Below, piece after piece: positions 5,509 to 48,728 of a stretch of 49,548 nucleotides of DNA; the stretch's first letter is position 1, and every line of letters begins with the position of its first letter. A program made the position numbers and the translations under genes. Below the pieces are notes generated by a model, which saw only the letters and a program-made list of their open reading frames with translations, did no database searches and was not told the origin of the DNA. This DNA is from an uncultured Bacteroidales bacterium (GTDB lineage Bacteria; Bacteroidota; Bacteroidia; Bacteroidales; FEN-979), in contig CAIQUS010000104.1 in NCBI GenBank assembly GCA_903875045.1, positions 1-49,548 of the forward strand, given 5' to 3'.

Positions 5509-5522
5509 CGGTTAATATACTT

Positions 5523-31217: not shown

Positions 31218-32027
31218 ATGAAGCCCAAGATTCTTGTCATTGACGATGAGAAGATCATGCAAACCATTCTTGCCTCATCACTTCGCGCAATGGATTTTGA
31301 TGTGGAGGCCGTGGAAAGCGGTGAAAAAGCTTTTGAATGGCTCGAAGAGAACCTTCCGGACCTGGTTATTTGCGACATTCAGATGCAACCGATGGATGGT
31401 TATACCTTTCTTTTGAAATTTCGTGAACGCGCATATACAGCGCTCACACCTGTTATTATGCTTTCAGGCGTTGAAGCCAAAAAAGAGCGGGTGAAATGTT
31501 ACCGAAACGGGGCTCAGGATTTTCTGAGCAAACCATTCAACAAGGAGGAATTGCATGAACTCATTAAGAAAAATCTGAATCCAATCTACTATAAGCATGA
31601 CCAGTATGATGAGGTTCAGCTCATCGGGAAAACCCCTCCGGAGAGAAAAAAGATCCTGGTTATTGATGATGATCAAACAATACGATTGATCCTTGTGAGG
31701 TTTTTATCGAAACAATATGAAGTCGAAGCCAGAGGGGATGGACAATCAGCACTGGAATGGCTTGAAAGAAATACGTGTGACCTTGTAATATGCGATATCG
31801 GTATGACTCCGATCAATGGTTACGAATTTCTTGAGAAATTTCATCAGCGCGGGTACACCAAACACACCCCGGTCATCATGTTATCACAAGAGGAAAAAAC
31901 GGCCGAACGACTGAAGTGTTACCAACTGAGCGCACAGGATTACCTTACAAAACCATTTAATCCTGAAGAGCTTGAAGAGCTGATCAAGAAAAATCTGCTT
32001 CCAAAAATTTATGCCCGTAAGTGGTAG
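31218..32027 (+). CDS. Stand-alone protein with two tandem receiver (REC) domains
   Basis: The 269 residues are two complete response-regulator receiver domains with no output domain. REC1 (about 1-125) has the acidic pair in LVIDDEK, phospho-acceptor Asp53 in LVICDIQM and Lys105 in LSKPF. REC2 (about 145-269) has LVIDDDQ, Asp193 in LVICDIGM and Lys245 in LTKPF. The two are similar throughout (KCYRNGAQDFLSKPFN versus KCYQLSAQDYLTKPFN), indicating an internal duplication. No histidine kinase is adjacent. Lying directly before the priming sugar transferase, which itself starts with a receiver-like domain, it likely controls the polysaccharide pathway through protein-protein contact. That role is inference. 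Confidence 0.9.
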   Translation: MKPKILVIDDEKIMQTILASSLRAMDFDVEAVESGEKAFEWLEENLPDLVICDIQMQPMDGYTFLLKFRERAYTALTPVIMLSGVEAKKERVKCYRNGAQDFLSKPFNKEELHELIKKNLNPIYYKHDQYDEVQLIGKTPPERKKILVIDDDQTIRLILVRFLSKQYEVEARGDGQSALEWLERNTCDLVICDIGMTPINGYEFLEKFHQRGYTKHTPVIMLSQEEKTAERLKCYQLSAQDYLTKPFNPEELEELIKKNLLPKIYARKW

Positions 32028-32088
32028 TTCCAGCAATAAACTCCTATTCCTTTTCTAGAAAATCAGTGATTCTAAATACGTTGAAAAA

Positions 32089-33336
32089 ATGGAAAACAAA
32101 GTATCTATCCTTTACATCGGAGTTTCACCAGTAATGATTGATCATTTCGGTTCGCACAATGAGGTTGATTTTATTGTTCACAGGAATTTACTGGCTGCGA
32201 AAATTTATCTGAAAAAAAACCAAAAGCCCGATGCCATCCTGTGTGATGAGTACCCTTCGGGAGGCAAGGGGTTTGACTTTCATGATGAACTGCGTCAAAA
32301 TCCGGAATTCAATGAAGTGGCATTTATCCTGCTTTCTGATGAATTCCGGCAAAATGTATATAATCTGGCACTTTCAAAAAAAATTGATGATTTTTATATC
32401 CTTCCCGATCCATCGGTAGCAGCGCTGATAGGCCGCGTCAGGTTCCTGAGAGATTATCGGCGGAAATATTCGGTCAAACCTCCATCATTTGCCACAGATA
32501 CCATGGTTAAAATGCCGCGTTCAAAACGTATTTTTGACCTTGTGGTGGCCTGCAGTGCGTTGGTTTTCTTATCACCACTCCTGCTGCTGGTAATTCTTGC
32601 CATCAAATTGGAATCAAAAGGTAGTTTTTATTACAAATCCCCACGCTTCGGACAGAAGAAATTTGATTTTTATAAACTCCGTTCAATGCGTATCGGTGCG
32701 GATAATCAGCTGGATAAACTGGCGAAAGAGAAAAACCAGTATCAGGCTGTGCAAAAACAACCCGATCAAACCATGCTGGAACCCTGCCCGCGGTGTGCAA
32801 AACTGCCGGAAGGACAATTCTGTTCGCCTGTTAAAGATGGTGGGGCATTCAAAATATGTGACTATTGGTTTATCAAACAATCTGAAGCGAAACAAATTGC
32901 CACCTTCACAAAGATATCCAATGATCCGCGTGTGACCAAAGTTGGTAAATTCATCCGGAATACCAGTATTGACGAGTTGCCGCAACTCATTAATGTTATT
33001 AAAGGTGACATGTCTATTGTAGGAAATCGTCCGTTGCCTATCTATGAAGTTGAACATCTATTAACAGACAAAGTCAAAGAAAAGGACAAGGATAATGAAA
33101 ATTCCAGTGAAGATAAAAAAATAGCCATGATGCGTTGTCTTGCACCTGCCGGAATAACAGGTCTTTGGCAGGTTGAACTGAGGGGAAGGGGTGGTGATAT
33201 GTCGGAAGAGGAGCGCAAAAGGTACGATGTTGAATATTACACTGAACACCTTATTGAAGGAAAGTATTCCTTCTGGTATGATTTAGGACTTGTTTTACGG
33301 ACTGCCAAAGCCTTGTTTCAAAAGGATTCAGTTTAG
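32089..33336 (+). CDS. Polyprenyl-phosphate sugar transferase with N-terminal pseudo-receiver and Cys4 insert
   Basis: This is a membrane enzyme expected to transfer the first sugar phosphate to undecaprenyl phosphate. Residues 1-130 have the receiver fold pattern, with Asp53 in ILCDEYPS and a Ser in FILLSD. The N-terminal acidic pair (SILYIGVS instead of a VDD-type motif) and the conserved Lys-Pro (ILPDPS) are lost. A hydrophobic helix (about 146-175) precedes the catalytic domain with SPRFGQKKFDFYKLRSMR, TSIDELPQLINVIKGDMSIVG and APAGITGLWQVELRGRG. An insert of about 50 residues between these contains C233, C236, C245 and C257, a possible zinc knuckle. This is the first biosynthetic step of the locus. 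Confidence 0.92.
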   Translation: MENKVSILYIGVSPVMIDHFGSHNEVDFIVHRNLLAAKIYLKKNQKPDAILCDEYPSGGKGFDFHDELRQNPEFNEVAFILLSDEFRQNVYNLALSKKIDDFYILPDPSVAALIGRVRFLRDYRRKYSVKPPSFATDTMVKMPRSKRIFDLVVACSALVFLSPLLLLVILAIKLESKGSFYYKSPRFGQKKFDFYKLRSMRIGADNQLDKLAKEKNQYQAVQKQPDQTMLEPCPRCAKLPEGQFCSPVKDGGAFKICDYWFIKQSEAKQIATFTKISNDPRVTKVGKFIRNTSIDELPQLINVIKGDMSIVGNRPLPIYEVEHLLTDKVKEKDKDNENSSEDKKIAMMRCLAPAGITGLWQVELRGRGGDMSEEERKRYDVEYYTEHLIEGKYSFWYDLGLVLRTAKALFQKDSV

Positions 33337-33360
33337 TTTAACCCTGCAATAAATTAATTA

Positions 33361-34116
33361 ATGCCCTTGGTCCGTTGCTTTATATCAGGTGTTTTTGTGT
33401 TCCTGTCATGTTGTTATTCGCTTCATGCACAGAAGGATATTAAATTTGATTTAGCCAAAGATGATATACAGGCCAAGTTGCCACCCCTTGAAGTGCTGAT
33501 CGATTCTGCGATCGCCCATGATCCGTATGTAAGTTTCAGAAACAGACAAATTTTTATCAACACCAGCAAACTCCGTGCAGACCAGAAACAGTGGATGCGC
33601 GATATCGGTTTTCAGGCTGATTACAGATATGGCACTTTCGATAATTTTTCCACAAATACCGCTGAAGGACAGAGCCCTGCCACATTTTCAACCACACGCA
33701 GTGAGTCAAAATATGGTGTTGGTGTCTATTTTAAATTTCCGCTATTCGATATCATCAACCGAACCAATCAGGTAAACCTGTCAAAAACGGAGGTAAACCA
33801 GGCACGGGATATGGTTGAAGTGCAATCCTCTGAACTCAGGCAAAAGGTGATCAGGCAATATAATGAACTGGTGGTCAGGCAACGGATCCTGCAAATCAAA
33901 ACGAAATACCTGGAAACATCGAGAATCAACATGTTAATGGTAGAAAAAGAGTTTCTGAATGGTGTGGTACCAGTGAGTGAATATACCCGGATATCTTCCA
34001 TTTGCTCGCAAACTGAATCAGATTATGAATCTGCAAAAATGGATTTTAAAACGGCCTATATGATTCTTGAAGAAATTGTTGGCATGAAATTGCATGTAAT
34101 TTTTAATGCTCCATAG
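33361..34116 (+). CDS. Half-length TolC-like outer-membrane protein
   Basis: The 251-residue product has a signal peptide (ending SLHAQ). A single TolC/OEP-type unit follows: helix PPLEVLIDSAIAHDPYV, a beta segment around QADYRYG to GVGVYFKFPLFD, and a long coiled-coil helix pair (about 140-225) with QVNLSKTEVNQARD and VIRQYNELVVRQRIL. Standard TolC-family proteins have two such repeats in about 430-480 residues, so this has roughly half the length. A hexameric instead of trimeric channel, or a periplasmic adaptor, are possible readings. It lies between the priming transferase and the co-polymerase and no Wza-type protein is present, so it is the likely outer-membrane exit component. Confidence 0.78.
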   Translation: MPLVRCFISGVFVFLSCCYSLHAQKDIKFDLAKDDIQAKLPPLEVLIDSAIAHDPYVSFRNRQIFINTSKLRADQKQWMRDIGFQADYRYGTFDNFSTNTAEGQSPATFSTTRSESKYGVGVYFKFPLFDIINRTNQVNLSKTEVNQARDMVEVQSSELRQKVIRQYNELVVRQRILQIKTKYLETSRINMLMVEKEFLNGVVPVSEYTRISSICSQTESDYESAKMDFKTAYMILEEIVGMKLHVIFNAP

Positions 34117-34120
34117 CCGG

Positions 34121-36847
34121 ATGAATATCATTGACCTGTTAAGACTCATACGCAAACACATTGTATTACTGCTCGTAACCCCGGTAGTGCTAGCTGTTCT
34201 TGTCGCATATCTTACCAGAAAACCCACCTATACCTACTCTTCAGAAACCACACTATATACTGGTATTGCCAGTGGTGGAGGGGTTGAAATGGATAAATCG
34301 CTGAGCTTTTTCGCAACCAATACCGCCTTCGATAACCTGATCAATGTGATCAAATCACGTCAAACTCAGGAAGAGGTAGGAATCAGGTTGCTTGCCCAAC
34401 ATCTGGTACTCGATAAATATGATCAGAAATACCTCTCCAAAGCCTCATTTATCAGGCTGAAACAAATCACACCTGCCTATATATACAAACTCGTTGTTAG
34501 ACATGTCGATAAAACCACAGATGTTGAGGAGAACAAACCACTTGCTGTAAAACCATCTGTCAAGCCACAACAATCGGTCAGTCAAAAGTCATATCATACC
34601 ATAAAACCCGGGGAAACACTTTACCGCATTGCCAAACAATACGGACTCTCTCCTGAGGAATTGAAGGCTATGAATGATTTGTCAGACAACAACATTGAGC
34701 CAGGACAAGTACTTAAGGTAAGTTCGTTCAGCGATGAAATGGAATCGGTACAATCCTCTGATGATACCATATCCGCACCTGACACCCTGAGTTCGCAGGA
34801 TACATTTTCGTTCACAAGACTTGATTCAGCAAGTATCCTTCAATGGTTGCCATCAACAGTCAGTATTGATGCGTATGAACAAACCGTGCAGAACCTGTTG
34901 AACTACATGTCGACCAACGATACCAATTTCATCTATAAATTACTCAATTTCAGTAACCCACACTATTCTGTCAAAGCAATTTCAAGTGTGAACGTACAAC
35001 GCATTGCCAGCAGCGACCTGGTTCGGTTGAAATATGATTCGGATGATCCGGGAATTTGCCAGCAAACCCTTACCTTTTTAACGGCAGTTTGTATCAAGAA
35101 TTTTAAGGGCATCAAGGAGAACCGTTCCGATGCAGTTGTAAAGTATTTTGAATTCCAGGTAAATCAAGCTGCGGGGAGGCTGAAAGTTGCAGAGGATAAA
35201 TTGTTAAAGTTCAATAAGGACAATAACATCATCAACTATTATGAGCAAAGCAAGGCTGTTGCCGTCGTAAAAGAAGACCTGGACGTGACATACAACAACA
35301 TGCGGATCAAACTTGCAGGCACACAAGCGGCTATCACCCGAATTGAAGAGAAACTCAACAGTCAGCAGAAAGTTCAACTCAATAGTTCACAAATCCTTGA
35401 ACAGCGCAACCAGTTGGCCGATATCAGCATGAAAATTGCTGACATTGAACTAATAGGAAATCCTGATTCGATTGATTTGCCAAAACTGACCAAATTGAAA
35501 GCAGAGGCTACCAAACTGAAAGCCAAAATCACCAACTCCATTGGTAAATTGTATAGTTATGGGCACACCACCGATGGCCTGCCACTCAATGGCCTGCTTA
35601 CAGACTGGCTTGCCAATGTGCTCGATTATGAAAACACCAAAGCCGGGCTTCAGGTTTTGGGTGAACGGATAAAAGAATTTCAAAAGCAATATGCCATTTA
35701 TGCACCGGCAGGTGCCAACCTGAAACGCATCGAACGTGAAATCAATGTTTCGGAGCAAGCCTATCTTGAACTATTGCACGGATTGAACCTCGCCAAACTG
35801 AAAATGCAGGATATCGAACTTTCATCGAATATCAAAGCCATTGACCCACCTTTTTTCCCTTTGTCCCCGAATCCAACGAAACGGTCCATGCTTATTGTTG
35901 TTGCAGGTCTCCTGGGCTTTATCCTTGTTTTGGTCACCATCCTGGCCATGGAGTATCTTGACAATACACTCCGAAATCCTAATAAAGCCGCAAAGATCTT
36001 CAATCTTGAATCCGTTGGCGTTTTCCCCAAGATATTTCTGCATGTTGGCAACCTGAATTTCCCGTTTATCGTCAACAGGCTGACGGAGATGATCCTCCAG
36101 CAAATTAATTATTGTACTAACCGGATTTCCGGTAAAAACAAGCCGGATACTATTTTGTTTTTCAGCACGCTAAGCAATGAAGGAAAGACGACCATCATAG
36201 GAAATATCGCTTTAAAGCTTAAAATGCAGGGGAAGAAAGTTCTGGTACTTAACTTTTCACGTGAATCGTTGCGGGAACAAGAAATCTCTCAGCCTGGTTA
36301 TCCGGATCATCCCCATTCAACCTCAACTTCAGGATTGATAAATTCAAATAAACAGGGTTTTTCGTTTAAAAGGCTCCTGGGATATCCTGATACCCGCGTT
36401 GATTACGATAGTCCTTTTCTGCAATCGCCTGAAGAGTATCTTGAACCGGAGGAGTATTTTATTTATCCGGTTGATCAGATTTATTATTCCGCGACTAATT
36501 ACAGGGATCTCATGTTGAGCAGCCCTTTTTCACTCTCATGCGATCCCGAAGTGGTTTTAATTGAGATACCACCGCTGCTCTATTATTCCTATCCTTCGGG
36601 CTTCGTTTCAAAACAAGATGTTGCCGTATTGATAGCCAGGGCAAACAGGGTTTGGACCACTGCCGACAAAGCAGCCCTGGAAACGGTTTCGCAACATACA
36701 GCCAAACCTCCGATGTTTTTGCTCAATGGTGTTGAGATCCCAGTCATTGAAACATTTCTTGGTGAACTGCCCAAACACCGGAACAGGTTGCACAGGATCA
36801 TCAAAAGATTAATCCGTTTCCAGTTTTTTGACCAATACAAACCTTAA
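34121..36847 (+). CDS. Wzz/GumC-type polysaccharide co-polymerase with LysM domain and BY-kinase-like domain
   Basis: This inner-membrane protein of 908 aa is expected to control chain length and export. ATG 34121 (MNIIDLLRLIRKH) is preferred over ATG 34106, which overlaps the previous gene. TM1 is about 13-32. A LysM domain, a peptidoglycan-binding motif, lies inside the periplasmic part at about 156-203 (HTIKPGETLYRIAKQYGLSP). A long coiled coil (about 335-545) and TM2 (about 588-613) follow. The cytosolic end resembles bacterial tyrosine kinases: Walker A STLSNEGKTT (about 681-692) is intact, but the Asp of the second Walker motif is Asn (VLVLNFS), and the IEIPPLL segment has Glu where Asp is usual. 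There is no C-terminal Tyr cluster, so kinase activity is doubtful. Confidence 0.9.
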   Translation: MNIIDLLRLIRKHIVLLLVTPVVLAVLVAYLTRKPTYTYSSETTLYTGIASGGGVEMDKSLSFFATNTAFDNLINVIKSRQTQEEVGIRLLAQHLVLDKYDQKYLSKASFIRLKQITPAYIYKLVVRHVDKTTDVEENKPLAVKPSVKPQQSVSQKSYHTIKPGETLYRIAKQYGLSPEELKAMNDLSDNNIEPGQVLKVSSFSDEMESVQSSDDTISAPDTLSSQDTFSFTRLDSASILQWLPSTVSIDAYEQTVQNLLNYMSTNDTNFIYKLLNFSNPHYSVKAISSVNVQRIASSDLVRLKYDSDDPGICQQTLTFLTAVCIKNFKGIKENRSDAVVKYFEFQVNQAAGRLKVAEDKLLKFNKDNNIINYYEQSKAVAVVKEDLDVTYNNMRIKLAGTQAAITRIEEKLNSQQKVQLNSSQILEQRNQLADISMKIADIELIGNPDSIDLPKLTKLKAEATKLKAKITNSIGKLYSYGHTTDGLPLNGLLTDWLANVLDYENTKAGLQVLGERIKEFQKQYAIYAPAGANLKRIEREINVSEQAYLELLHGLNLAKLKMQDIELSSNIKAIDPPFFPLSPNPTKRSMLIVVAGLLGFILVLVTILAMEYLDNTLRNPNKAAKIFNLESVGVFPKIFLHVGNLNFPFIVNRLTEMILQQINYCTNRISGKNKPDTILFFSTLSNEGKTTIIGNIALKLKMQGKKVLVLNFSRESLREQEISQPGYPDHPHSTSTSGLINSNKQGFSFKRLLGYPDTRVDYDSPFLQSPEEYLEPEEYFIYPVDQIYYSATNYRDLMLSSPFSLSCDPEVVLIEIPPLLYYSYPSGFVSKQDVAVLIARANRVWTTADKAALETVSQHTAKPPMFLLNGVEIPVIETFLGELPKHRNRLHRIIKRLIRFQFFDQYKP

Positions 36848-36857
36848 AACATCTAAT

Positions 36858-38228
36858 TTGAAATCAATTCTCCATAAACTCACCCGCGAAGCAAATTTTT
36901 TATCACTTGTTGCCAATCTGGCTATCGCTTTTTTCGGATTTGCCGGATTTGCTTTACTTGCACGAAGCTATCCGGTTGAGTTGTTTGGACAGTGGGTTTT
37001 GTATATTTCATCCGCCGCATTCATCGAGATGTTCAGATTCGGAATTACCAACACAGCCATCATCCGATATCTTTCGGGTGTTGACCAGGACGACAGGCTC
37101 AAATATGTTGGCTCCAACGGACTCATCGGATTGATCGCCACGATTTTCATCCTTATCATCTTATGGACTATCTATCTGATCTTTCCGCAACCTATTCATC
37201 ATGCAGGATATGGACTGTTTTTCGCATGGTATCCCATCATGGCTTTGATCAATTTACCTCTGAATACGGCATTGGTCATCATGCAGGCCGATCAAAAATT
37301 CGGTAAATTACTGATGATCAAATCTATAAATAGTGGTGGTTTTTTTCTGGTTATCCTTGTGAATTACATTTTCTTCTCCATGAACCTGACCCAACTGGTC
37401 TGGATGCAATTGGGTATCAATGTAATTACATCAACCATCTGTATGGTCAACGGATGGGATGGACTCAGGCATATAAGGAAAGCAACAAAACAGACCAACA
37501 AGGTTTTACTGGATTTTGGCAAATACACCACATTCACGCTCATTGGCACCAACCTCCTTCGCAGCGCCGATACCCTGATCATCAGCCTGAGCCCGCTTGG
37601 AACTGCAGCGGTTGCGCTGTACAGTATTCCACTCAAACTAACTGAATTACAACAAATTCCCCTGAGAAGTTTTGTTGCTACCGCCTTCCCGAAAATGTCA
37701 AAAGCCAGCGTACAAGGCAAAATTGAAGAGGTGAAAGAACTCTTCTATACTTATTCCGGGGCCATGTTCTATCTTTTTATCCTGGCCAGTCTTACGACAT
37801 TTATTTTTGCCGATTTCTTTGTGCTGTTGCTGGGGGGCCGTCAATACCTGGCAACGGATCCCTTTACCGGTGCCAATGCAGTTACCATTATGCGGATATT
37901 TTCCATTTACGGCCTGTTATTACCCATCGACCGGATGACTGGTGTCGGACTGGACAGCATCAACAGGCCAGATAAAAATTTCCAGAAAGTGCTGCTTATG
38001 GTCATTGCCAACGTGATTGGCGACCTTATTGCCGTTTTCGTATTCAAGTCTCTGGAACTTGTTGCGGTCGGGTCTATCCTCTTTACCATCCTCGGCGTAT
38101 GGGTAGGATACTATTTCATTAACCGTCAACTTGATCTTGAATTCCGAAAGATTTTTTCATCCGGCATTGAGTTTTACAGTTCAATGTACAGAAAGTTCAG
38201 GAAATCGAAGTCGAACCCGGCCAGGTAA
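36858..38228 (+). CDS. Polysaccharide flippase (Wzx/MATE-like)
   Basis: This is a multi-spanning membrane protein of about 456 aa with 12-14 hydrophobic helices. It is predicted to flip lipid-linked repeat units across the inner membrane. The N-terminus LTREANFLSLVANLAIAFFGFAGFALLAR and the TAIIRYLSG segment fit the polysaccharide-synthesis flippase family. There is no ATG. Both candidate starts are TTG: 36828, which would overlap the previous gene, and 36858, which begins MKSILHKLTREANF just after the previous stop. The latter is chosen. It pairs with the polymerase gene that follows, indicating a Wzx/Wzy-dependent route. Confidence 0.87.
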   Translation: MKSILHKLTREANFLSLVANLAIAFFGFAGFALLARSYPVELFGQWVLYISSAAFIEMFRFGITNTAIIRYLSGVDQDDRLKYVGSNGLIGLIATIFILIILWTIYLIFPQPIHHAGYGLFFAWYPIMALINLPLNTALVIMQADQKFGKLLMIKSINSGGFFLVILVNYIFFSMNLTQLVWMQLGINVITSTICMVNGWDGLRHIRKATKQTNKVLLDFGKYTTFTLIGTNLLRSADTLIISLSPLGTAAVALYSIPLKLTELQQIPLRSFVATAFPKMSKASVQGKIEEVKELFYTYSGAMFYLFILASLTTFIFADFFVLLLGGRQYLATDPFTGANAVTIMRIFSIYGLLLPIDRMTGVGLDSINRPDKNFQKVLLMVIANVIGDLIAVFVFKSLELVAVGSILFTILGVWVGYYFINRQLDLEFRKIFSSGIEFYSSMYRKFRKSKSNPAR

Positions 38229-38264
38229 ATAACATTCGGATAAACCATCTTACCGACGCAATGC

Positions 38265-39719
38265 ATGCGGAATCAGCATAAACCATTTGAAACCCTTTCA
38301 GGTTCTGACAAATTGGGTTCAAACAGAAATCTTTTAATCATCTTTCTTGCGATTTTTGTTGCTGCCTGGGTCATTGCCAATAAAGGAATAGTTGGCGGGA
38401 TCGGGTTGATGGTACTTCCATTCATTCTCATCTACGGCTATTTTTTTTTCAAAAACCCCATTATTGGCGTATATACCGCAGTTGCCCTCAGTTTTATCAT
38501 CCTGGGCTCAGCCCGGTATATCAAAGGCGTACAAGTAGGCATGGCCATGGATGGAATTCTCTTTCTGACATATATTGCCTTGTTTTTCAATCGTTTTAAG
38601 GAACGGATCCAGTGGGGGCCAGCGAACAAGGATGCAACCATTCTGGCGTTGGTTTGGTTTGGGTTCACCGTTTTGCAGTTCTTTAACCCGGAGGCACGGA
38701 GCAAAGAAGCCTGGTTCGTTGGATTCCGCGGCATTTCACTTTACATGATGCTGTTAATCCCGCTTGTTTTACTTCTGATCAACACCCGTCGCAAACTTGA
38801 TATTTTTCTTTACCTCTGGGCGACATTTTCAATTCTTGTATCCATGAAGGGTATCATGCAGTTAACCATTGGTGTCGATCCTTATGAAAAAGCCTGGCTC
38901 GATGGTGGTGGTGCGGTTACGCATATTTTGTTTGGAAAACTGCGAATCTTTTCATTTTTAAGCGATGCCGGGCAATTTGGCGCCAACCAGGCTTATTCAG
39001 GTGTTGTATTCTCCATCATCGCATTTACGGTCAAAGACAAAAAAATCAGACTCTTTTATCTGACAGCCGCAGTTCTTGGCTTATATGGGATGTTGTTATC
39101 CGGAACCCGGGGTGCCATAAGTATTCCCCTCACAGGATTTTTCCTGTATGCTGTACTGAGAAAAAACCGTTTTGTGATGATTTCAGGCACGGTTTCTCTT
39201 TTGCTGGTCTTCATATTTTTCAAATACACCACTATCGGTCAGGATAATCAACAGATCCGACGAATGCGTTCGGCTTTTGACCCCAACGATGCATCTCTTC
39301 AGGTCCGGCTCGAAAACCAGAAAAAACTAAGTGTTTATCTTTCGTCACGGCCATTTGGCGGAGGGATCGGGCATGCCGGTGTGAAAGCCCAGCGTTTCCT
39401 TCCCAATGCCTTCCTTTCCAATGTGGCCACTGATAGCTGGTATGTACTGATATGGGCTGAAATGGGCGTCGTAGGATTGTTACTTCATCTTTTCATTCTT
39501 TTCTATGTGCTTGGCAAATCATCCTACATGGTTTTATTTAAACTGAAAGACCCCGAAGTCAAAATAAAAATGGCAGCCATGGCCTCCGGAATGTTCGGGG
39601 TTATGGTTGCCTCTTATGGAAATGCAGTTCTTGGCACGATGCCCACCGGGATACTGCTCTATACAGCCATGGCCCTGATGCTGAATGCCAAACATTTCGA
39701 TGAGGAAGCCATGGCCTAA
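38265..39719 (+). CDS. O-antigen ligase/polymerase family protein (Wzy-like)
   Basis: The 484-residue integral membrane protein has about 11 hydrophobic helices and a large extracytoplasmic loop (about residues 200-265, FGKLRIFSFLSDAGQFGANQ). GMLLSGTRGAISIPLTGFFLYAVL is the hallmark core of the Wzy_C / O-antigen ligase family. After it comes a second loop with RSAFDPNDASLQVRLENQ and RPFGGGIGH. In this gene context it should polymerise repeat units in the periplasm under control of the co-polymerase. Wzy and WaaL-type ligases cannot be separated by sequence alone. Confidence 0.9.
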   Translation: MRNQHKPFETLSGSDKLGSNRNLLIIFLAIFVAAWVIANKGIVGGIGLMVLPFILIYGYFFFKNPIIGVYTAVALSFIILGSARYIKGVQVGMAMDGILFLTYIALFFNRFKERIQWGPANKDATILALVWFGFTVLQFFNPEARSKEAWFVGFRGISLYMMLLIPLVLLLINTRRKLDIFLYLWATFSILVSMKGIMQLTIGVDPYEKAWLDGGGAVTHILFGKLRIFSFLSDAGQFGANQAYSGVVFSIIAFTVKDKKIRLFYLTAAVLGLYGMLLSGTRGAISIPLTGFFLYAVLRKNRFVMISGTVSLLLVFIFFKYTTIGQDNQQIRRMRSAFDPNDASLQVRLENQKKLSVYLSSRPFGGGIGHAGVKAQRFLPNAFLSNVATDSWYVLIWAEMGVVGLLLHLFILFYVLGKSSYMVLFKLKDPEVKIKMAAMASGMFGVMVASYGNAVLGTMPTGILLYTAMALMLNAKHFDEEAMA

Positions 39720-39738
39720 AGGAAAAAATATTTTTCCC

Positions 39739-39768
39739 TTTGTTTGCATATATAATTCATTATATTTG
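39739..39768 (+). promoter_or_regulatory. Putative internal promoter of the polysaccharide locus
   Basis: TTTG (39739-39742), an 18-base spacer and TATATTTG (39761-39768) match both elements of the Bacteroidota promoter. Transcription would start near 39775, ahead of the first glycosyltransferase at 39812. A weak GGAAAAA/TTTTTCC hairpin at 39721-39737 precedes it. Confidence 0.65.
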
Positions 39769-39811
39769 TACATCGTGATGCCAGGTTATTCATTTTATAA
39801 GTTAAACGCCT

Positions 39812-40741: not shown

Positions 40742-40751
40742 ACCCTGACAG

Positions 40752-41963
40752 ATGAATTCAATGTTATTACAGGCAATCAATGTGATACAACTGGTCGTAT
40801 TCATCCCTTTGGCGCTGGCAGTATTATATATATTCGTATATGCCTTTGCCGGACTATTTTACCGGCAACGCCCCTACCCTGCCAATCCCCGGTTAAAAAA
40901 AATCGCCGTTCTGATACCGGGATACAAGGAAGATGAAGTTATTATTGACGTTGCCCGGCAGGCGCTGGACCAGGATTACCCGCATCAGCTTTTCGATGTG
41001 GTCATTATCGCTGACTCTTTTCAACCTCAAACTATTTCATCCCTTAAGCAATTACCCATCAAGGTCATTGAGGTGAAGTTTGATAAAAGCACCAAGTCAA
41101 AAGCGCTGAACAAAGCGATGGAACAATTGCCCGATGGTTATGACATCGCAGTGGTGCTTGATGCAGATAACGTAATGGCACCTGATTTTTTACAAAAGGT
41201 AAATTCAACCTTTGAGCTCACCTTTTCTGCGGTTCAGGGGCACCGTCAGGCTAAAAATATGGACACATCCCTCGCAGTCCTGGATGCCATCAGTGAAGAG
41301 ATCAACAACCATATCTTCAGGAAAGGCCACCGGGTACTAGGGCTTTCGTCTGCCATTATCGGATCGGGCATGGCTTTCAGGTATGCCTTTTTTAAAGAAA
41401 TGATGTCAACTGTTACCGCCATTGGCGGTTTTGACAAGGAAATTGAGCTCAAAATGCTCAAGGATGGTTATAAAATCGCCTACCTTGATGATGCAGCCGT
41501 GTTCGATGAAAAGGTCCAAAAGGCTGAAGTCTTTACCAATCAGCGCCGCCGCTGGCTTTCAGCCCAGTTAATTTATTTCCAGCGCGATTTTCTATCTGCC
41601 TTAAAATCATTGGTTACCAAAGGAAATATCGACTATTTCGACAAAGCCATCCAGTTTATTCAACCACCACGGATTTTATTATTGGGTTCCGTCCTGCTGC
41701 TGGGAACACTGTTTATGGTGCTAAACCTGTTTATTCTTTACGATATCAACTTCTTTTACATCTGGTTCACTTTGATCATCTTTTGTGTTGCTGCCTTCTT
41801 TTTTTCTATTCCGGCTACATTTTATAATACGACAACATTAAAAGCCATCGGCAGTTTGCCAAAAGGCATGTTACTCATGCTTGGCTCCCTGCTTAAAATC
41901 AAAGGTGCCAATAAACAATTCATTCATACAAAACATACTGCCGGCAAACATACCATCAAGTAG
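40752..41963 (+). CDS. Membrane glycosyltransferase family 2 with QxxRW-type motif
   Basis: The 403-residue protein has an N-terminal membrane helix (about 10-35), a GT-A domain and two to three C-terminal helices (about 300-375). Visible motifs are AVLIPGYKEDEVI, the donor-binding Asp in VVIIADSF, VVLDADNVM (DxD), and the processive-type QRRRW in FTNQRRRWLSAQLIY. This topology resembles cellulose or hyaluronan synthase-like enzymes, which can both polymerise and extrude sugar, though many members only add single sugars. Its acceptor is unknown. It lies in the run of transferases of the locus. Confidence 0.92.
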   Translation: MNSMLLQAINVIQLVVFIPLALAVLYIFVYAFAGLFYRQRPYPANPRLKKIAVLIPGYKEDEVIIDVARQALDQDYPHQLFDVVIIADSFQPQTISSLKQLPIKVIEVKFDKSTKSKALNKAMEQLPDGYDIAVVLDADNVMAPDFLQKVNSTFELTFSAVQGHRQAKNMDTSLAVLDAISEEINNHIFRKGHRVLGLSSAIIGSGMAFRYAFFKEMMSTVTAIGGFDKEIELKMLKDGYKIAYLDDAAVFDEKVQKAEVFTNQRRRWLSAQLIYFQRDFLSALKSLVTKGNIDYFDKAIQFIQPPRILLLGSVLLLGTLFMVLNLFILYDINFFYIWFTLIIFCVAAFFFSIPATFYNTTTLKAIGSLPKGMLLMLGSLLKIKGANKQFIHTKHTAGKHTIK

Positions 41964-41987
41964 TACTGATAACTGAAAAACTAATCT

Positions 41988-43142
41988 ATGAAAATCGGGA
42001 TCGAAGGACAACGGCTTTTTCGCAGCAAAAAACACGGGATGGACATGGTTGCGCTGGAATTGATCCGCAACCTTCAAAAGATTGATCAGAAAAACGAATA
42101 CATCATTTTCATCAAACCAGATGAGGATGATGCCTGTTTGAAAGAGAGCTCCAATTTCAAAATTGTAAAACTCGAAGGCGGATTTTATCCCTTATGGGAA
42201 CAAATTGCCCTGCCAAGGGCTGCCGCAGCTGCAGGGTGCCAGCTGTTGCACTGCACGAGCAATACCGCACCGGTTAACACCTCTATCCCGCTGGTGGTCA
42301 CCCTGCATGATATTATATACATGGAGAGCAGCTATGGAAAGATTCTCAGCGGCAGCGGTACCACCTATCAAAAATTTGGGAACGCTTACAGGAGGTTAAT
42401 TGTGCCCAGGGTCATCAAAAAAAGCCGGAAGATCATTACGGTTTCTCATTTTGAGAAAAATCGCATCGGGGAATTCTTCGGCATGAAAGGGGATTCCCGC
42501 CTGACCGCGGTTTACAACGGTGTAAGTGATTACTTTAAACCTGTTACAGATCAGGCGACCTTGTTGCGGGTCAAACAGAAATATCATCTGCCCGACCATT
42601 ATTTTTTCTTTCTGGGCAATACAGATCCGAAGAAAAACACCCGTGGAACCTTGAAAGCCTATTCCGATTTTCTGAAACAAACCGGCAGTGATATGCGTCT
42701 TGTAATGCTCGATTATGACCGTGCAGAATTGGATAAAATACTGGTTGAAATAGGCGACCAATCTTTGATTGACCGAATTGTACTGACAGGTTATGTAGTC
42801 AATACCGACCTGCCTGCCATTTACAGCCAGTGTGATGTATTTCTCTACCCGTCACTCCGAGAGAGTTTCGGGATACCCATGCTTGAAGCAATGGGCTGCG
42901 GGGCTCCGGTGATAACCTCCACAACCTCCTCCATGCCAGAAGTTTCAGGCGGTGCTGGATTTCTTGTCGACCCGTTTAACCCGACGGAAATCACAGCTGC
43001 CATGATCCAAATAACCGGAAATCGTGATTTGAAAAACCAACTCATTGAAAAAGGATTGGCACAGGCCCCCAAATTTTCATGGAAGGCAATGGCCGAAAAT
43101 GTGTTGGATATATACAAGGAAATCGGATCAAATGTGCAATGA
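41988..43142 (+). CDS. Glycosyltransferase family 4 (GT-B fold)
   Basis: This is a 384-residue retaining glycosyltransferase. The N-terminal half begins MKIGIEGQRLFRSKKHGMD and contains TLHDIIYMES. The C-terminal donor-binding half has FFLGNTDPKKNTRGTLKAY and the family signature FLYPSLRESFGIPMLEAMGCG, including the EX7E glutamates, then PEVSGGAGFLVDP. It likely uses a nucleotide-activated hexose or similar to extend the lipid-linked repeat unit. It ends 22 bases before the next transferase. Confidence 0.94.
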   Translation: MKIGIEGQRLFRSKKHGMDMVALELIRNLQKIDQKNEYIIFIKPDEDDACLKESSNFKIVKLEGGFYPLWEQIALPRAAAAAGCQLLHCTSNTAPVNTSIPLVVTLHDIIYMESSYGKILSGSGTTYQKFGNAYRRLIVPRVIKKSRKIITVSHFEKNRIGEFFGMKGDSRLTAVYNGVSDYFKPVTDQATLLRVKQKYHLPDHYFFFLGNTDPKKNTRGTLKAYSDFLKQTGSDMRLVMLDYDRAELDKILVEIGDQSLIDRIVLTGYVVNTDLPAIYSQCDVFLYPSLRESFGIPMLEAMGCGAPVITSTTSSMPEVSGGAGFLVDPFNPTEITAAMIQITGNRDLKNQLIEKGLAQAPKFSWKAMAENVLDIYKEIGSNVQ

Positions 43143-43164
43143 TGACATTTAAAAACCTGATTAT

Positions 43165-44367
43165 ATGATAAAAGGCCGCGATATCATCGTAATCGGTATT
43201 CAACCATGGGATATCGAAATCGGGAGCAACTGCAAAAACATCGCAGAAGAATTTGCCCGTCATAACCGGGTGTTGTACGTAAATGCACCGCTCGACCGTA
43301 TTACCAGACAAAAAGAGAAAAATACGCCGAAAATTCAAAAACGGATCCGGGTGCAACAGGGAACCGAACCTGATCTGGTTTCACTGAATCAGAATTTATG
43401 GAACCTTTATCCCAAAGGAGTCATTGAATCAATCAATTGGATTAAATCACCCTGGTTATACGACATCCTGAACAAACGAAACAACCGGATACTCGCCAAA
43501 GCCATTCAGTCGGCTATCCAACGGCTGGGATTCAGCAATTTCATATTGTTTAATGACAGTTCCATGTTTTCAGGCCTTTACATGAAAGAGTTGTTGAAAC
43601 CGGCCATTTATGTTTATTACATGCGTGATTATCTCACCAAAAATCCCTACTGGCGCAGGCAAGGTGTCCGGCTGGAACCGGAACTTATCCGCAAAGCAGA
43701 TTTGGTTGTCAATAACTCCACGCTTTATGCCGATTATGGCAGGCAATTCAATAAACACTCTTACATGGTTGGCCAGGGCTGCGATGTAACTCTTTTTAAT
43801 GATACGGACCATGAAATTTTACCGGCGGATGATCTTGGTACAATTCCACATCCTGTGATTGGTTATGTCGGTTTTCTGGCATCACGCAGGCTCGATATCG
43901 GATTGATTGCCAACATTGCCCGACAACGTCCAGGCTGGAGCATTGTACTTGTCGGACCTGAGGATGATGTCTTCAAAGCATCTGAGTTACATTCAATTCC
44001 AAACATCCATTTCCTCGGATCACGTGATTCACAGATTCTTCCAACCTATATCAAAGGATTTGATGTGTGCATGAACCCGCAGTTAGTCAACGATGCAACA
44101 AGAGGAAATTATCCCCGGAAAATAGATGAATACCTTGCCATGGGTAAGCCCACCATCGCTACGGCGACAGAGGCTATGGATTATTTCAGGGACCATACTT
44201 ATCTTGGATCAACGGTTGCGGAGTACATTGCTTTAATTGAACGTGCGCTTGAAGAAGATTCTGCAGAAAAGCAACAGCAGCGCCGCAACTATGCCATCAG
44301 CCACACCTGGGAGAACAACGTACTCGAAATTTACAAATACATTGAACTTGTAGCAGAAAAAAAGTAA
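43165..44367 (+). CDS. Glycosyltransferase (GT-B fold, TuaH-like)
   Basis: The 400-residue protein starts with RDIIVIGIQPWDIEIGSNCKN and VLYVNAPLDR, a pattern seen in TuaH-like transferases of teichuronic acid and exopolysaccharide loci. The C-terminal half contains IGYVGFLASRRLDIGLIANI, IVLVGPED and YPRKIDEYLAMGKPTIAT, which correspond to the donor-binding loops of GT-B enzymes. It is a cytosolic or peripheral membrane enzyme of the repeat-unit assembly. Sugar specificity cannot be read from sequence. Confidence 0.88.
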   Translation: MIKGRDIIVIGIQPWDIEIGSNCKNIAEEFARHNRVLYVNAPLDRITRQKEKNTPKIQKRIRVQQGTEPDLVSLNQNLWNLYPKGVIESINWIKSPWLYDILNKRNNRILAKAIQSAIQRLGFSNFILFNDSSMFSGLYMKELLKPAIYVYYMRDYLTKNPYWRRQGVRLEPELIRKADLVVNNSTLYADYGRQFNKHSYMVGQGCDVTLFNDTDHEILPADDLGTIPHPVIGYVGFLASRRLDIGLIANIARQRPGWSIVLVGPEDDVFKASELHSIPNIHFLGSRDSQILPTYIKGFDVCMNPQLVNDATRGNYPRKIDEYLAMGKPTIATATEAMDYFRDHTYLGSTVAEYIALIERALEEDSAEKQQQRRNYAISHTWENNVLEIYKYIELVAEKK

Positions 44368-44385
44368 CCCGTAAATCTTCAGGTC

Positions 44386-45000
44386 ATGAGCATTGTCAAT
44401 AAAATTAAATCGAATCCGAAACTGAAAAGTTTCATTCTGTGGACTATTTCACCCAGACGGAACCCGCGTCCCCGACTGTGGGTGAGGTGGTTTCTGAACC
44501 CATTTATTCATAAAAAGGGAAAAGGTGCCACCATCCGTGGCAGGTCTAGGATCGATGTTTTCCCATGGAACCGGTTTGAGATCGGTGATTTAACCACTAT
44601 CGAGGATTTTACCACCGTCAACAACGGTTCAGGTGCAGTTATCCTCGGAAACAGGGTGAGGGTTGGCATCGGTTCCGTGGTAATAGGTCCGGTGACAATG
44701 GGAAATGGATCGGGCCTTGGTCAGCATGTTTTTGTGAGCGGGTTCAACCATGGATATAAGGATGCCTCGAAGAATTCAAGTGTCCAGCCTCTTGATCTGA
44801 AACCCGTTGTTATAGAGGATGATGTACATATCGGGGCCAATTCGGTGGTTACGGCAGGTGTAACCATCGGAAAACGCACCCAGATAGGGGCTGGCAGTGT
44901 GGTTACCAAAAGTATTCCTCCTTTTTCCATCGCGGTTGGAAACCCATGCAAAGTCATCAAACGCTTTAACCATCAAACCAACCAATGGGACCGGGTTTAA
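44386..45000 (+). CDS. Hexapeptide-repeat acyltransferase (left-handed beta-helix)
   Basis: The 204-residue protein belongs to the LbH acetyl/acyltransferase group (WbbJ/NodL/CysE-like). Residues about 60-190 are imperfect hexapeptide repeats, for example VRVGIGSVVIGPVTMGNGSG and VHIGANSVVTAGVTIGKRTQ, ending in the usual PPFSIAVGNPCKVIKRF. FVSGFNHGYKD holds the likely catalytic His loop. It probably O-acetylates a sugar of the polysaccharide using acetyl-CoA as a trimer. The N-terminal about 55 residues are basic and unlike the repeats. Confidence 0.92.
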   Translation: MSIVNKIKSNPKLKSFILWTISPRRNPRPRLWVRWFLNPFIHKKGKGATIRGRSRIDVFPWNRFEIGDLTTIEDFTTVNNGSGAVILGNRVRVGIGSVVIGPVTMGNGSGLGQHVFVSGFNHGYKDASKNSSVQPLDLKPVVIEDDVHIGANSVVTAGVTIGKRTQIGAGSVVTKSIPPFSIAVGNPCKVIKRFNHQTNQWDRV

Positions 45001-45036
45001 TATTCAAGAAGAAACTCACTAAAAATCGCTGATATT

Positions 45037-45825
45037 ATGATTAAGAAACTGACAACTTACTCCAAATACTTTTTTGAATATTTAAAGCATGGTGATTACG
45101 ATTCCATCATTAGTTCTGTCCGATATCTGCTTAAAAAGGGATCACATGCCAGTGACCGGACCATTACAACATCCATCGGGACTTTTTTCTGCCGGAAAAA
45201 CACCAACGATTTTCAGTTTGCCAACTACCGCTATGAATGGGGCGTAAAAAAATTCATGCTCGAACACAAAAACGAGTACAATGTATTCATTGATGGCGGT
45301 GCCTGTATCGGAGAGTATTGCATTTTACTGACCAAACTTGGCGTCAGATGCATTGCCTTTGAACCGGTCATTGCCAATTATGATGTACTTAAAAAGAACC
45401 TGGAACTAAATAAAATCACCGACAAAGTCCTTGCCTTTCCTTACGGACTGGGCGACCGTGAAATGGAAGCTCCTTTCCACTTCAATCCTGTGAATACGGG
45501 TGCTTCGCATATCATTCTGGATGGAAAACCAGCCGACTGTTTCGTTGGAATACGCACCCTCGATTCACTGATTCCGATGTTGGGGCTGAAACAATCGGAC
45601 AGGATTATGGTGAAACTCGATGTGGAGTGCATGGAACCGGAGGCCATCCGTGGTGCCGCCGGATTTATCAACAGTTTTCCGAATGTAACCTTCGTGGCCG
45701 AAGATAAACACAGCGGCGATGATCTGATTAAACAGGAATTAATGAACATTGCCGGTTTTGAATTCGGTATCGTTGATTCATTCAATATTTATGCAAAAAA
45801 AGTCATTTCCCCACGGTCAAATTAA
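45037..45825 (+). CDS. FkbM family methyltransferase
   Basis: The 262-residue SAM-dependent methyltransferase has the FkbM-type core: FIDGGACIGEYCILLTKLG (SAM-binding glycine motif), IAFEPVIANYDVLKKNLELN, the GLGDREMEAPFHF strand, MVKLDVECMEPEAIRGA and VTFVAEDKH. It probably methylates a hydroxyl of one sugar of the exopolysaccharide. The N-terminal about 60 residues are helical and specific to this protein. It lies between the acyltransferase and the last GT2 gene, matching a role in decorating the repeat unit. Confidence 0.92.
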   Translation: MIKKLTTYSKYFFEYLKHGDYDSIISSVRYLLKKGSHASDRTITTSIGTFFCRKNTNDFQFANYRYEWGVKKFMLEHKNEYNVFIDGGACIGEYCILLTKLGVRCIAFEPVIANYDVLKKNLELNKITDKVLAFPYGLGDREMEAPFHFNPVNTGASHIILDGKPADCFVGIRTLDSLIPMLGLKQSDRIMVKLDVECMEPEAIRGAAGFINSFPNVTFVAEDKHSGDDLIKQELMNIAGFEFGIVDSFNIYAKKVISPRSN

Positions 45826-45833
45826 CAAATGCC

Positions 45834-47018
45834 ATGCTTGCACTTAAAATCACTTTCTGGGTTCTCCTGTTTATCGTATTTTATGCCTATATCGGCTATG
45901 GAATTCTATTGTATATCCTGATAAAAATCAAGCGATTATTTGGAAAAAGCGGGATTAAACCCGTTGCGGGGTATGAACCCGATGTCACCTTGTTTATAGC
46001 TGCTTATAACGAAAAGGATTTTGTGGCTGCGAAGGTAAAAAACTCACTTGAACTCGATTATCCCATTCAAAAATTGCATCAGGTATGGGTCACCGACGGA
46101 TCTGATGATGGTACACCGGATGTATTGAAACAATATCCTGGCGTCGAGGTTCATCATCTTCCTCAACGCAGCGGAAAGATCGGCGCAATGAACCGCGGGA
46201 TGAAATTTGTAAAAACACCGATCGTCGTATTTTGCGATGCCAACACCATGCTGGGAAGTGAATCAATCAGGCGCATTGTCAATTTATTCAGCAACCCAAA
46301 AGTTGGATGTGTTTCAGGGGAAAAACGTATTTTCAGCAAAGACAAGGACTCAGCTGCCGGAGCAGGTGAAGGGTTGTACTGGAAGTACGAATCGACCCTT
46401 AAAAAATGGGATGCGGAACTATATTCGGTGGTTGGTGCCGCCGGTGAACTCTTCGCCATCCGAACGGAACTTTATCAGGAAGTTGAACGCGACACCCTGC
46501 TCGATGATTTTATCATTTCACTCAGGGTGGCACAAAGCGGTTACACCATACAATATGATCCTGAGGCGTATGCCATTGAAACAGCCTCCGCCAATGTCAA
46601 GGAAGAACTGAAAAGGAAAATCCGGATTTCTGCCGGGGGGATACAATCGGTGGTAAGGTTACGATCGCTGCTCAATGTTTTCAAATATGGAACCCTCTCC
46701 TTTCAGTATATTTCGCATCGTGTATTACGCTGGACTCTGGCGCCGCTATCCCTGCTTTTCATGCTCATTGCAGGATTTGTACTTGCCTTGAATGAAGGTA
46801 TGTTCAACCTTGGCTTATATAGCATGGTTTTCTGGTTGCAAATTATATTCTATCTCGCCGCATTGCTTGGATGGTACCTCGAAAACCGATCCATCAGGCT
46901 GAAATTGCTGTTTGTCCCATATTACTTTTTCATCATGAACCTTTCAGTGTTCCTTGGATTCAAAAGATACCTGAAAAAGTCTCAATCTGTTAACTGGGAG
47001 CGTGCAAAACGAGGATAA
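45834..47018 (+). CDS. Membrane glycosyltransferase family 2
   Basis: This is a 394-residue GT2 with an N-terminal membrane helix (about 5-28), a GT-A domain and three C-terminal helices (about 300-375). The motifs are VTLFIAAYNEKDFV, VWVTDGSDDGT, VVFCDANTML (DxD-like), DDFIISLRVAQSGY and the C-terminal RKIRISAGGIQ that takes the place of QxxRW. The organisation is like IcaA- and cellulose-synthase-type enzymes, but single-sugar transfer is equally possible. It begins eight bases after the FkbM gene, and the beta-helix gene follows 21 bases later. Confidence 0.92.
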   Translation: MLALKITFWVLLFIVFYAYIGYGILLYILIKIKRLFGKSGIKPVAGYEPDVTLFIAAYNEKDFVAAKVKNSLELDYPIQKLHQVWVTDGSDDGTPDVLKQYPGVEVHHLPQRSGKIGAMNRGMKFVKTPIVVFCDANTMLGSESIRRIVNLFSNPKVGCVSGEKRIFSKDKDSAAGAGEGLYWKYESTLKKWDAELYSVVGAAGELFAIRTELYQEVERDTLLDDFIISLRVAQSGYTIQYDPEAYAIETASANVKEELKRKIRISAGGIQSVVRLRSLLNVFKYGTLSFQYISHRVLRWTLAPLSLLFMLIAGFVLALNEGMFNLGLYSMVFWLQIIFYLAALLGWYLENRSIRLKLLFVPYYFFIMNLSVFLGFKRYLKKSQSVNWERAKRG

Positions 47019-47039
47019 ACATTCGTTTGCACCAGTATT

Positions 47040-48728
47040 ATGAAAATAAAGTTATTGTTTTTCATTTCATTTATTTTTGGCTGTTATGCATTGGTTTTTT
47101 CTGGACAAGACAGGAAACCAAGGATCATTGTGAACACCACCACCACATTAATTGATGCAACGGTTGCCCCTTATAATCAAATCCTTCCTGGGGATACGCT
47201 TTTCTTCCAGGCTGGTTTGCGTGAATACCTGCTGATCAGAAATTTTCACGGAGAAACCGGGAACCCGGTGGTTTTTCTCAATCTGAACGGCGCCGTAATT
47301 ATTGATACCGATCACCACTTCGGCATTTCCATGGTAAATTGCCAGTTTATTAAATTTTCCGGAACAGGTTCTGCCGATCATTTTTATGGTTTTAAAATCC
47401 AACGGGTTGAGGCCGGAGGTGCCATGGGAATCGGAGGATTGAGTTCAGATGTTGAAATTGATCATTTTTACATCGAAAATGTTCCGATCGGAGGAATTTA
47501 TGCGAAAACTGATCCTGATTGCTCGTTTGCATCAACCCGCGATAAATTTACCCAGTACAACACCATTATTCACGATAATAATATTGTCGGCGTGGGCAAT
47601 GAAGGGTTGTATATCGGCAACAGCAAGTATTTCGGACAGGTAGTAAACTGTAATGGCGTTGATACACTCCTGCTCCCATCCCTCTTAAATGGGGTAAAAA
47701 TATACAACAATATCATCAGTTATTCAGGATGGGACGGGATTCAGGTAAGTTCTGCCTCAAGCAACTGCCAGATTTATGATAATCTGATCATGTTTGATAG
47801 TCAGGATGAATATTTTGCCCAGATGTCTGGCATTTTACTCGGCGGGGGATCCAAATGCGATTGTTTCAACAACTATATAACCGATGGCAAGGGCAATGGC
47901 ATTGAAAGTCACGGGTTGGGTGGATACCGTGTATTCAACAACATCATCGTGAATGCCGGAAAAACCTTTAAACCCTCCGATAGTAGTCAGATGAAGCATG
48001 GTATCTATGTCACCGATGTTTCGGTTCAGCCTGATTCGTCCTTTTATATCCTGTTCAACGACATTATCAATCCAAAATCCGACGGAATACGATTTTCAAG
48101 TACACATAGCCGCCATAACCTGATCGCTTCCAATGCAATCATCAATCCCGGGAATTTTGAGTATTATGAACACGGGCATACCGGTTTTAAAGGGATTGAT
48201 TCATTTGTGATGATTCCAAATGACTCATCGGAGGTGGCTATAAATAACAACTATTTTTCAAGAACTATTGACAGTGCGGGTTTTTCACCATCAAATTACT
48301 CCCTGCAACCAGGTTCGCCTCTGATTGATGCCGCTTATACTGACCATAAAGGAGTTACCTTCGATTTTTACCACCACGAACGGCCGTTTGGAGGCAGATA
48401 CGATATTGGCGCACATGAGTACAACCCGGCATATCTTGATATCTCTGAAAATAAGTTGCCTTCAGCATTCAAAATGACCCTCTATCCTAACCCGGTACAG
48501 GAAAGGTTTTCGATCCATTTCCAGGTCAATGAACAATCAGCAATCATGCTCGATATATATAACCTTGACGGAAATCCGGCGGAGCGCAGCAATTTGGGAA
48601 ACCTTGAACCAGGGGTCTACACAAAAGAAATCAATGTTGTAAATCTCCCTGATGGCATTTACCTGTACATGCTTCGGGTTGGCAACCAATCTTATTCCGG
48701 AAGATTTGTTAAAATCACCCGGAAGTAA
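47040..48728 (+). CDS. Secreted right-handed beta-helix protein with T9SS sorting domain
   Basis: This is a 562-residue extracellular protein. A signal peptide (ending VFSGQ) is followed by a parallel beta-helix (about 60-430) with repeated Asn ladders, for example YNNIISYSGWDGIQVSSASS and FNNYITDGKGNGIESHG. This fold is used by polysaccharide lyases, pectinases and alginate epimerases. A C-terminal type A T9SS sorting domain starts FKMTLYPNPVQERFSI. As the last gene of the locus it may cut, modify or bind the polymer made upstream. The catalytic residues of known lyase families are not evident to me, so activity is not assigned. Its last 14 bases overlap the convergent HPt-like gene. Confidence 0.9.
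   Translation: MKIKLLFFISFIFGCYALVFSGQDRKPRIIVNTTTTLIDATVAPYNQILPGDTLFFQAGLREYLLIRNFHGETGNPVVFLNLNGAVIIDTDHHFGISMVNCQFIKFSGTGSADHFYGFKIQRVEAGGAMGIGGLSSDVEIDHFYIENVPIGGIYAKTDPDCSFASTRDKFTQYNTIIHDNNIVGVGNEGLYIGNSKYFGQVVNCNGVDTLLLPSLLNGVKIYNNIISYSGWDGIQVSSASSNCQIYDNLIMFDSQDEYFAQMSGILLGGGSKCDCFNNYITDGKGNGIESHGLGGYRVFNNIIVNAGKTFKPSDSSQMKHGIYVTDVSVQPDSSFYILFNDIINPKSDGIRFSSTHSRHNLIASNAIINPGNFEYYEHGHTGFKGIDSFVMIPNDSSEVAINNNYFSRTIDSAGFSPSNYSLQPGSPLIDAAYTDHKGVTFDFYHHERPFGGRYDIGAHEYNPAYLDISENKLPSAFKMTLYPNPVQERFSIHFQVNEQSAIMLDIYNLDGNPAERSNLGNLEPGVYTKEINVVNLPDGIYLYMLRVGNQSYSGRFVKITRK

Follow-up and report, generated by a model that had tools for sequence, protein, structure and literature searches.

A conserved single-repeat TolC-like protein as the candidate outer-membrane exit of a Wzx/Wzy-type exopolysaccharide locus in Bacteroidota

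The window analyzed here is a complete contig of 49,548 bases from the 5.96-Mb genome assembly of an uncultured Bacteroidales bacterium. At positions 31218-48728, it carries 14 intact open reading frames (ORFs), all on the + strand and narrowly spaced, whose coordinates agree with those of an earlier note made from the sequence alone. That note had read the run as a co-directional Wzx/Wzy exopolysaccharide system, and this holds: the 14 genes are open and in place, and their domains are recovered by profile, with the flippase weak. The run starts with a protein of tandem canonical receiver domains (REC) without an output domain (31218..32027, +; two matches to Pfam PF00072), followed by a small monotopic phosphoglycosyl transferase (PGT; 32089..33336, +; PF02397, 166 bits) that carries a degenerate receiver domain at its N-terminus and contains an insert with four Cys. 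The position normally taken by Wza is occupied, as the note had also seen, by a half-length TolC-like protein of 251 amino acids (aa), hereafter called “half-TolC” (33361..34116, +). It comprises an N-terminal helix, read as a signal peptide, and one OEP repeat (PF02321, AlphaFold, and Foldseek), and is the candidate outer-membrane exit channel. The next gene encodes a co-polymerase (PCP) of the PCP-2 type (913 aa; 34106..36847, +), in which Pfam, AlphaFold, and Foldseek identify a LysM insert and a kinase-like P-loop domain without a Tyr tail; the alignment with its relatives makes the ATG at 34121 a likelier start than position 34106. A probable Wzx flippase (36828..38228, +) and a probable Wzy polymerase (38265..39719, +; PF04932 (Wzy_C), 44 bits with a cut-off of 31.7) follow. 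Profile support for the flippase is weak (NCBIfam WZX_like, 17.8 bits, far under the cut-off); its position is conserved, and the Salinibacter homologue is annotated as an oligosaccharide flippase.

How widely is this arrangement shared? A scan of named genomes yielded 412 relatives, and all counts for “named loci” refer to the best 80 of these 412. In 76 of them, half-TolC immediately precedes the PCP, and the four remaining PCPs lie at most 275 bases from a contig end. REC, PGT, and half-TolC are contiguous in 65 of 76 named loci, and PCP, Wzx, and Wzy in 68 of 80, while a second half-TolC is absent from all 80. Among the 61 genomes around that of the window, the strong PCP relatives mostly lie in loci with the same core gene order, and 28 of the 29 half-TolC ORFs measure 247-287 aa, the other one being cut by a contig end. 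Across 296 genomes of the phylum (the window's own included), the PCP is found at E ≤ 1e-40 in 16 genomes, and 17 short half-TolC frames (232-303 aa, E ≤ 1e-10) are found in 16 genomes; these counts are lower bounds, because the phylum-wide searches score few candidates per genome. Beyond these short frames, the half-TolC model has one strong phylum-wide match within a stop-to-stop frame of 406 aa; its remaining matches (E 1.1e-14 and weaker) fall in frames of 449-620 aa. Of 17 loci from distant families, 12 have half-TolC immediately ahead of the PCP (the half-TolCs of L192-L194 among them score only 16-28 bits) and four have it directly after Wzy, as an alternative order (L187-L190, with no PCP model match within the stretch of L190); the last one is unassigned to either order. 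The phylum-wide loci of G144, G262, and G136 were left out, and a 402-aa partial PCP match without half-TolC in G058 (L061) was excluded from the counts; L062, L068, and L069 are ordinary PCP loci that were picked up weakly. The ORFs of L214 were read stop to stop, and the ORF calls of L191 are unreliable, which we read as an effect of high G+C content.

A tblastn search of plasmid records places the module in Salinibacter ruber pSR84, Aureispira, Hymenobacter, Parabacteroides distasonis, Bacteroides finegoldii, and Phocaeicola massiliensis. Five annotated records label half-TolC as a “TolC family protein” and the PCP as a “hypothetical protein”. The order of REC, PGT, half-TolC, PCP, and Wzy is the same in Parabacteroides and Phocaeicola; in Salinibacter (Rhodothermota), the genes lie together yet rearranged, with half-TolC adjoining Wzy, and PGT and PCP on the opposite strand. 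The three gut records labelled as plasmids may be chromosome pieces. The module also lies on the plasmid records of Salinibacter, Aureispira, and Hymenobacter (L214, L215, and L217), a location hinting at transfer. The earlier note would have fallen if its first four genes did not co-occur in other genomes, and they are found together across many. The REC-PGT-half-TolC-PCP-Wzx-Wzy core is deeply conserved, and its novelty is the conserved pair of half-TolC and PCP, not the LysM domain or the double REC.

In the half-TolC of the window, the single OEP domain covers profile positions 4-186 of 187, and PF02321 is matched by all 76 of the aligned half-TolCs. In the AlphaFold model based on this 76-sequence alignment (pLDDT 87.1, pTM 0.66), the N-terminal helix is followed by helix 55-81, two strands (82-98, of 17 residues, and 108-124), a 72-residue helix (128-199), and a return helix (205-240). 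This helix-strand-strand-helix order is what we take to be the layout of one TolC repeat. A Foldseek search against the PDB (E ≤ 0.001) returns 37 matches of the TolC, OprM, CusC, VceC, CmeC, SilC, and OprN type, about half the length of which is aligned; a few are titled merely as a membrane protein of P. aeruginosa. By sequence, a PDB search with the half-TolC profile retrieves TolC only, at E 0.013-0.07 and aligned to its second repeat. As a control, the full-length TolC proteins of L185 and L186 show two repeats to the half-TolC model, and the short proteins show one. Throughout the 76 sequences, the strands alternate between hydrophobic and polar residues, and near-invariant residues are retained. 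The complete copies in the named loci (n = 75) measure 238-291 aa, with a median of 252. Half-TolC therefore has the OEP domain and the TolC fold of this family, and lacks the two-repeat chain. Since TolC is a trimer of two-repeat chains, six half-chains would make the same barrel. Computation shows half-TolC to be a conserved protein with a predicted one-repeat TolC fold and an N-terminal signal-like helix.

The PCP of the window matches LysM in Pfam, with Wzz, GNVR, and CbiA matches under their cut-offs. Its AlphaFold model displays long helical arms (315-372, 378-450, 458-486, and 494-573) in addition to the P-loop domain, and the predicted helices 19-36 and 593-617 are read as membrane-spanning. 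In Foldseek, the solved structure that best matches this model is one chain of the Wza-Wzc complex (E 1.3e-16); Wzc entries come next, down to E 1e-8, and these matches support the identity of the protein as a co-polymerase. In the 80 aligned PCPs, the Walker A motif is invariant (80/80), the Walker B Asp is replaced by Glu in 79, and the Walker A′ Asp by Asn in 56. The PCPs share a conserved R.N(R).W...D motif and have lost the Tyr tail, with 0-2 Tyr within the last 30 residues. Among the hallmarks of a Wzc-type tyrosine kinase (Walker A, A′, B, and a Tyr-rich tail), Walker A alone is kept throughout. The invariant Walker A, the Asp-to-Glu change in Walker B, the conserved motif, and the absent Tyr tail together argue for a conserved special form, and the “degraded kinase” of the earlier note is not to be understood as plain decay. 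The LysM domain is detected by Pfam in 13 of 53 aligned PCPs, including that of the window, and is missing from 40; by eye, it is present in 21 of 30 closer PCPs. The AlphaFold model places it on the PCP, flanked by low-confidence linkers. The description of a LysM-bearing co-polymerase is thus correct for the window, but the domain is optional. The notion that the channel is held to the cell wall by LysM was rejected as a feature of the system, as LysM sits on the PCP and most PCPs lack it.

Next, we consider how the polymer would cross the outer membrane. No PF02563 (Wza) match exists among the 14 proteins of the locus, and the Wza model matches none of the named loci at E ≤ 1e-5. We regard it as fairly probable that the locus encodes an exopolysaccharide pathway of the Wzx/Wzy type, with half-TolC in place of the OPX protein Wza as the outer-membrane exit. 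The absence of Wza and Wzb claimed earlier is correct for Wza in the locus, but three Wza genes and two low-molecular-weight phosphatase matches lie elsewhere in the genome. Each of the three Wza genes is directly followed by a PCP with AAA_31, and a Wzz/GNVR search of the genome finds, as P-loop PCPs, these three Wza-paired proteins and a fourth in the half-TolC locus. Every Wza of the genome thus has a PCP partner, and half-TolC is paired with the sole P-loop PCP that has no Wza. The same genome also carries two short tandem Wzz-family frames (360 and 326 aa; G000:C14:105433-106716), with no Wza match on C14.

Could the polymer instead exit via a Wza encoded elsewhere, with half-TolC as an accessory, such as a periplasmic spacer or a PCP helper? 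We consider this unlikely, although it is the strongest competitor, and several observations weigh against the replacement of Wza. Besides the Wza genes of the window's own genome, Wza-family proteins occur elsewhere in all 17 of the named genomes and in all 19 high-quality phylum-wide genomes with half-TolC or PCP. In P. massiliensis (L220 10404-17981), a divergent gene for a long Wza lies right beside the REC-PGT-half-TolC-PCP module; by eye, this Wza has its own 371-aa Wzz-like neighbor. Outside the window's genome, the pairing of Wza and PCP is found in only 5 of 10 Wza loci from nine genomes (L205, L206, L208, L213, and L212, with one small ORF between). Three sequences underlie the Wza model, which performs less well on Wza of the long type (12-64 bits). 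Confidence in the PCP model is moderate (pLDDT 78.6, pTM 0.46), and a further full-length TolC control, L184, gave one clear repeat only. Against a Wza in trans, three module-bearing genomes among the 61 relatives have no detectable Wza, namely G010 (91% complete), G021 (95%), and G049 (79%); however, these are incomplete assemblies, and since only these three have the module without Wza, the absence of Wza is a weak argument. Also against a Wza in trans are the possession of its own PCP by each Wza of the window's genome and the association of the PCP, across the phylum, with half-TolC and not with Wza. Export via a Wza in trans is therefore disfavored.

A different possibility, to which we give little credence, is that an O-antigen-like glycan is handed to lipid A or protein with no need for a channel, and half-TolC exports something else. 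The PF04932 profile does not separate polymerases from ligases, and the matching protein could also be a ligase. To our knowledge, O-antigen pathways need no Wza, which also counts for this possibility. However, the PF04932 protein is the single one among the 14, the PCP combines a P-loop domain with very long helical arms and has a capsule export complex as its best match, and profile scans of the 14 locus genes find neither an efflux pump nor an adaptor. Finally, half-TolC is most improbable as a functionless, decayed remnant of a full TolC despite its halved length, as all 75 complete named-locus copies fall into one length class with near-invariant residues and amphipathic strands, and the 17 short frames recur in 16 of the 296 phylum-wide genomes.

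The window contains the two Response_reg domains of the “dual REC” described earlier, but the REC genes directly before the PGT in the named loci are usually single: 64 of 65 measure 121-172 aa, and one measures 556 aa. Apart from that of the window, those of L037 (270 aa), L065 (301 aa), and L128 (272 aa) are long enough for a double REC. These 65 genes were counted without a filter; a filtered REC set (n = 66) comprises ORFs of <310 aa that lie no more than seven ORFs from the PCP. All 68 stand-alone REC domains aligned retain the phospho-Asp, Ser, and Lys as well as the second acidic Asp. In the PGT, all 71 rows have the DE and RP motifs. In its receiver-like domain, by contrast with the stand-alone REC, the first acidic position is Gly in all 71 rows, the Lys column holds Lys in only two, and the phospho-Asp position is occupied by Glu in 35 rows, by Asp in 24, and by Asn in 7. 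The loss of the acid pair and the Lys, together with the PF02397 match, bears out the earlier reading as a pseudo-REC priming transferase. The distant PGT frames of L193, L195, L196, and L203 (247-284 aa) are too short for the receiver-like domain, which is thus not universal. Four Cys residues in an insert of the catalytic region (233, 236, 245, and 257) resemble a zinc ribbon and are kept in 68 of 71 rows. In L034, L070, and L071, two PGT genes lie ahead of half-TolC, and in L070 and L071 each has its own REC.

Potential partners of the receiver proteins are encoded nearby. An ORF of >600 aa with a REC match occurs in 16 of the named loci, two hybrid kinases inside loci carry CHASE4, GAF, HisKA, and REC domains, and the Hymenobacter locus combines a hybrid kinase with an Hpt protein and a response regulator. 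With EpsW and EpsZ as a close precedent, receiver control of the PGT is plausible, and its likely scheme would be a phosphorelay from kinase to Hpt, REC, and PGT. In the window, an Hpt-like ORF (48715-49248, −) is convergent with the locus; it has no Pfam match and is labelled by eye, with Asn in place of the expected His, which is present in L035 and L128. The BT_0523-BT_0524 pair of B. thetaiotaomicron is possibly related to the REC-PGT pair; it is described as an iron- and colitis-responsive sugar transferase with a “cognate response regulator” (PMC10434189).

The rest of the locus encodes enzymes for building and decorating the glycan. Downstream of Wzy, all on the + strand, lie a glycosyltransferase of family 2 (39812..40741; PF00535), a membrane glycosyltransferase of family 2 (40752..41963; PF13641, EpsU-like in NCBIfam under the cut-off), two glycosyltransferases of family 4 (41988..43142, PF00534; and 43165..44367, PF13692), a hexapeptide-repeat acyltransferase (44386..45000; PF00132), an FkbM-type methyltransferase (45037..45825; PF05050, 24.6 bits with a cut-off of 22.7), and a third family 2 enzyme, again a membrane glycosyltransferase (45834..47018; PF13641). 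The run ends with an accessory right-handed beta-helix protein bearing a T9SS sorting tail (47040..48728; PF13229 and PF18962). This protein is rare, with model matches in 5 of the 80 named loci, three of them strong. In L111, a UDP-glucose dehydrogenase and an NAD-dependent epimerase are encoded upstream of the module (4787-7066), and similar Flavobacteriaceae loci are recognized by ORF size and position only; such upstream genes suggest a polymer containing uronic acid or pentose.

We compared the locus with known export systems. Group-1 capsule and colanic acid export by Wza-Wzc (PMC12881504) shares with it the PGT, Wzx, Wzy, and a PCP for which Wza-Wzc is the top structural match; here, in contrast, the locus has no Wza, the PCP lacks the Tyr tail and carries the D-to-E change in Walker B, and half-TolC stands in the Wza position. 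The OPX/beta-barrel translocon of M. xanthus, EpsY-EpsX or Wzp (PMC9601211 and PMC9603273), likewise serves a Wzx/Wzy pathway in which the outer membrane is crossed without a Wza helix barrel. That translocon consists of an OPX protein and an 18-strand single-chain barrel, whereas the present candidate is a TolC repeat with no OPX in the locus. Profile scans match neither a short OPX nor a porin family, the two parts of such a composite translocon, among the 14 genes, and the main text of PMC9601211 makes no mention of TolC. According to the abstract of Saidi et al. (PMC9603273), most OPX proteins have no outer-membrane-spanning helix, which leaves the exit of many polymers open. The Flavobacterium Wza/Wzz mutants of PMC9950754 concern an ordinary Wza locus, and passages of PMC9197254 treat TolC for type I secretion only. 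Among the open-access papers listed by our searches, none, going by titles and the opening of abstracts, deals with a half-length TolC or with TolC as a Wzx/Wzy exit, nor did we find there an experiment on a half-TolC locus.

The individual components also have their counterparts. Half-TolC shares the fold and the OEP family with the outer-membrane factors TolC, OprM, and CusC, but has one repeat instead of two and is encoded alongside a PCP, where those factors have an adaptor and a pump. As for EpsW and EpsZ (PMC12802240), a single-domain response regulator like EpsW is encoded beside the PGT in most relatives, while the window has a double REC. EpsZ is a large PGT with a four-helix bundle and a DUF lacking a hairpin; the present PGT is small, and a fused domain that appears from its sequence to be a degenerate receiver precedes its catalytic domain. 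The bacterial tyrosine (BY) pseudokinase EcpK and HfsB (PMC12004946) resemble the PCP in being kinase-like partners of a PCP-2 without catalytic residues or a Tyr tail; here, however, PCP and P-loop domain form one chain, and Walker A is intact in all 80 rows.

In the mechanism that we propose for export by half-TolC, the phosphorylated stand-alone REC would turn on the PGT via its degenerate receiver domain, as EpsW does with EpsZ. The polymer made by the PGT, the glycosyltransferases, Wzx, and Wzy would then leave through half-TolC, several copies of which would form a beta-barrel in the outer membrane and an alpha-tunnel in the periplasm. Six copies would rebuild the 12-strand barrel of TolC, and eight would match an octameric PCP. 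This oligomer may dock on the PCP at its long helical arms, and the P-loop domain of the PCP would serve as a nucleotide-binding scaffold and not as a tyrosine kinase.

We see roughly even chances that this constitutes a fourth kind of polysaccharide outer-membrane exit: an OPX-independent homo-oligomer of a single TolC repeat, docked on a long-armed PCP-2 with a receiver-gated first step, extending from Bacteroidota (including human gut commensals) into Rhodothermota, in which half-TolC represents a living, unduplicated TolC unit. If so, a conserved type of locus that lacks OPX and has an exit derived from TolC would represent a further route of polysaccharide export, and would account for loci in plasmid records in which the PCP is annotated as a “hypothetical protein”. 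It would also provide a natural single-repeat TolC for the study of how the TolC barrel evolved.

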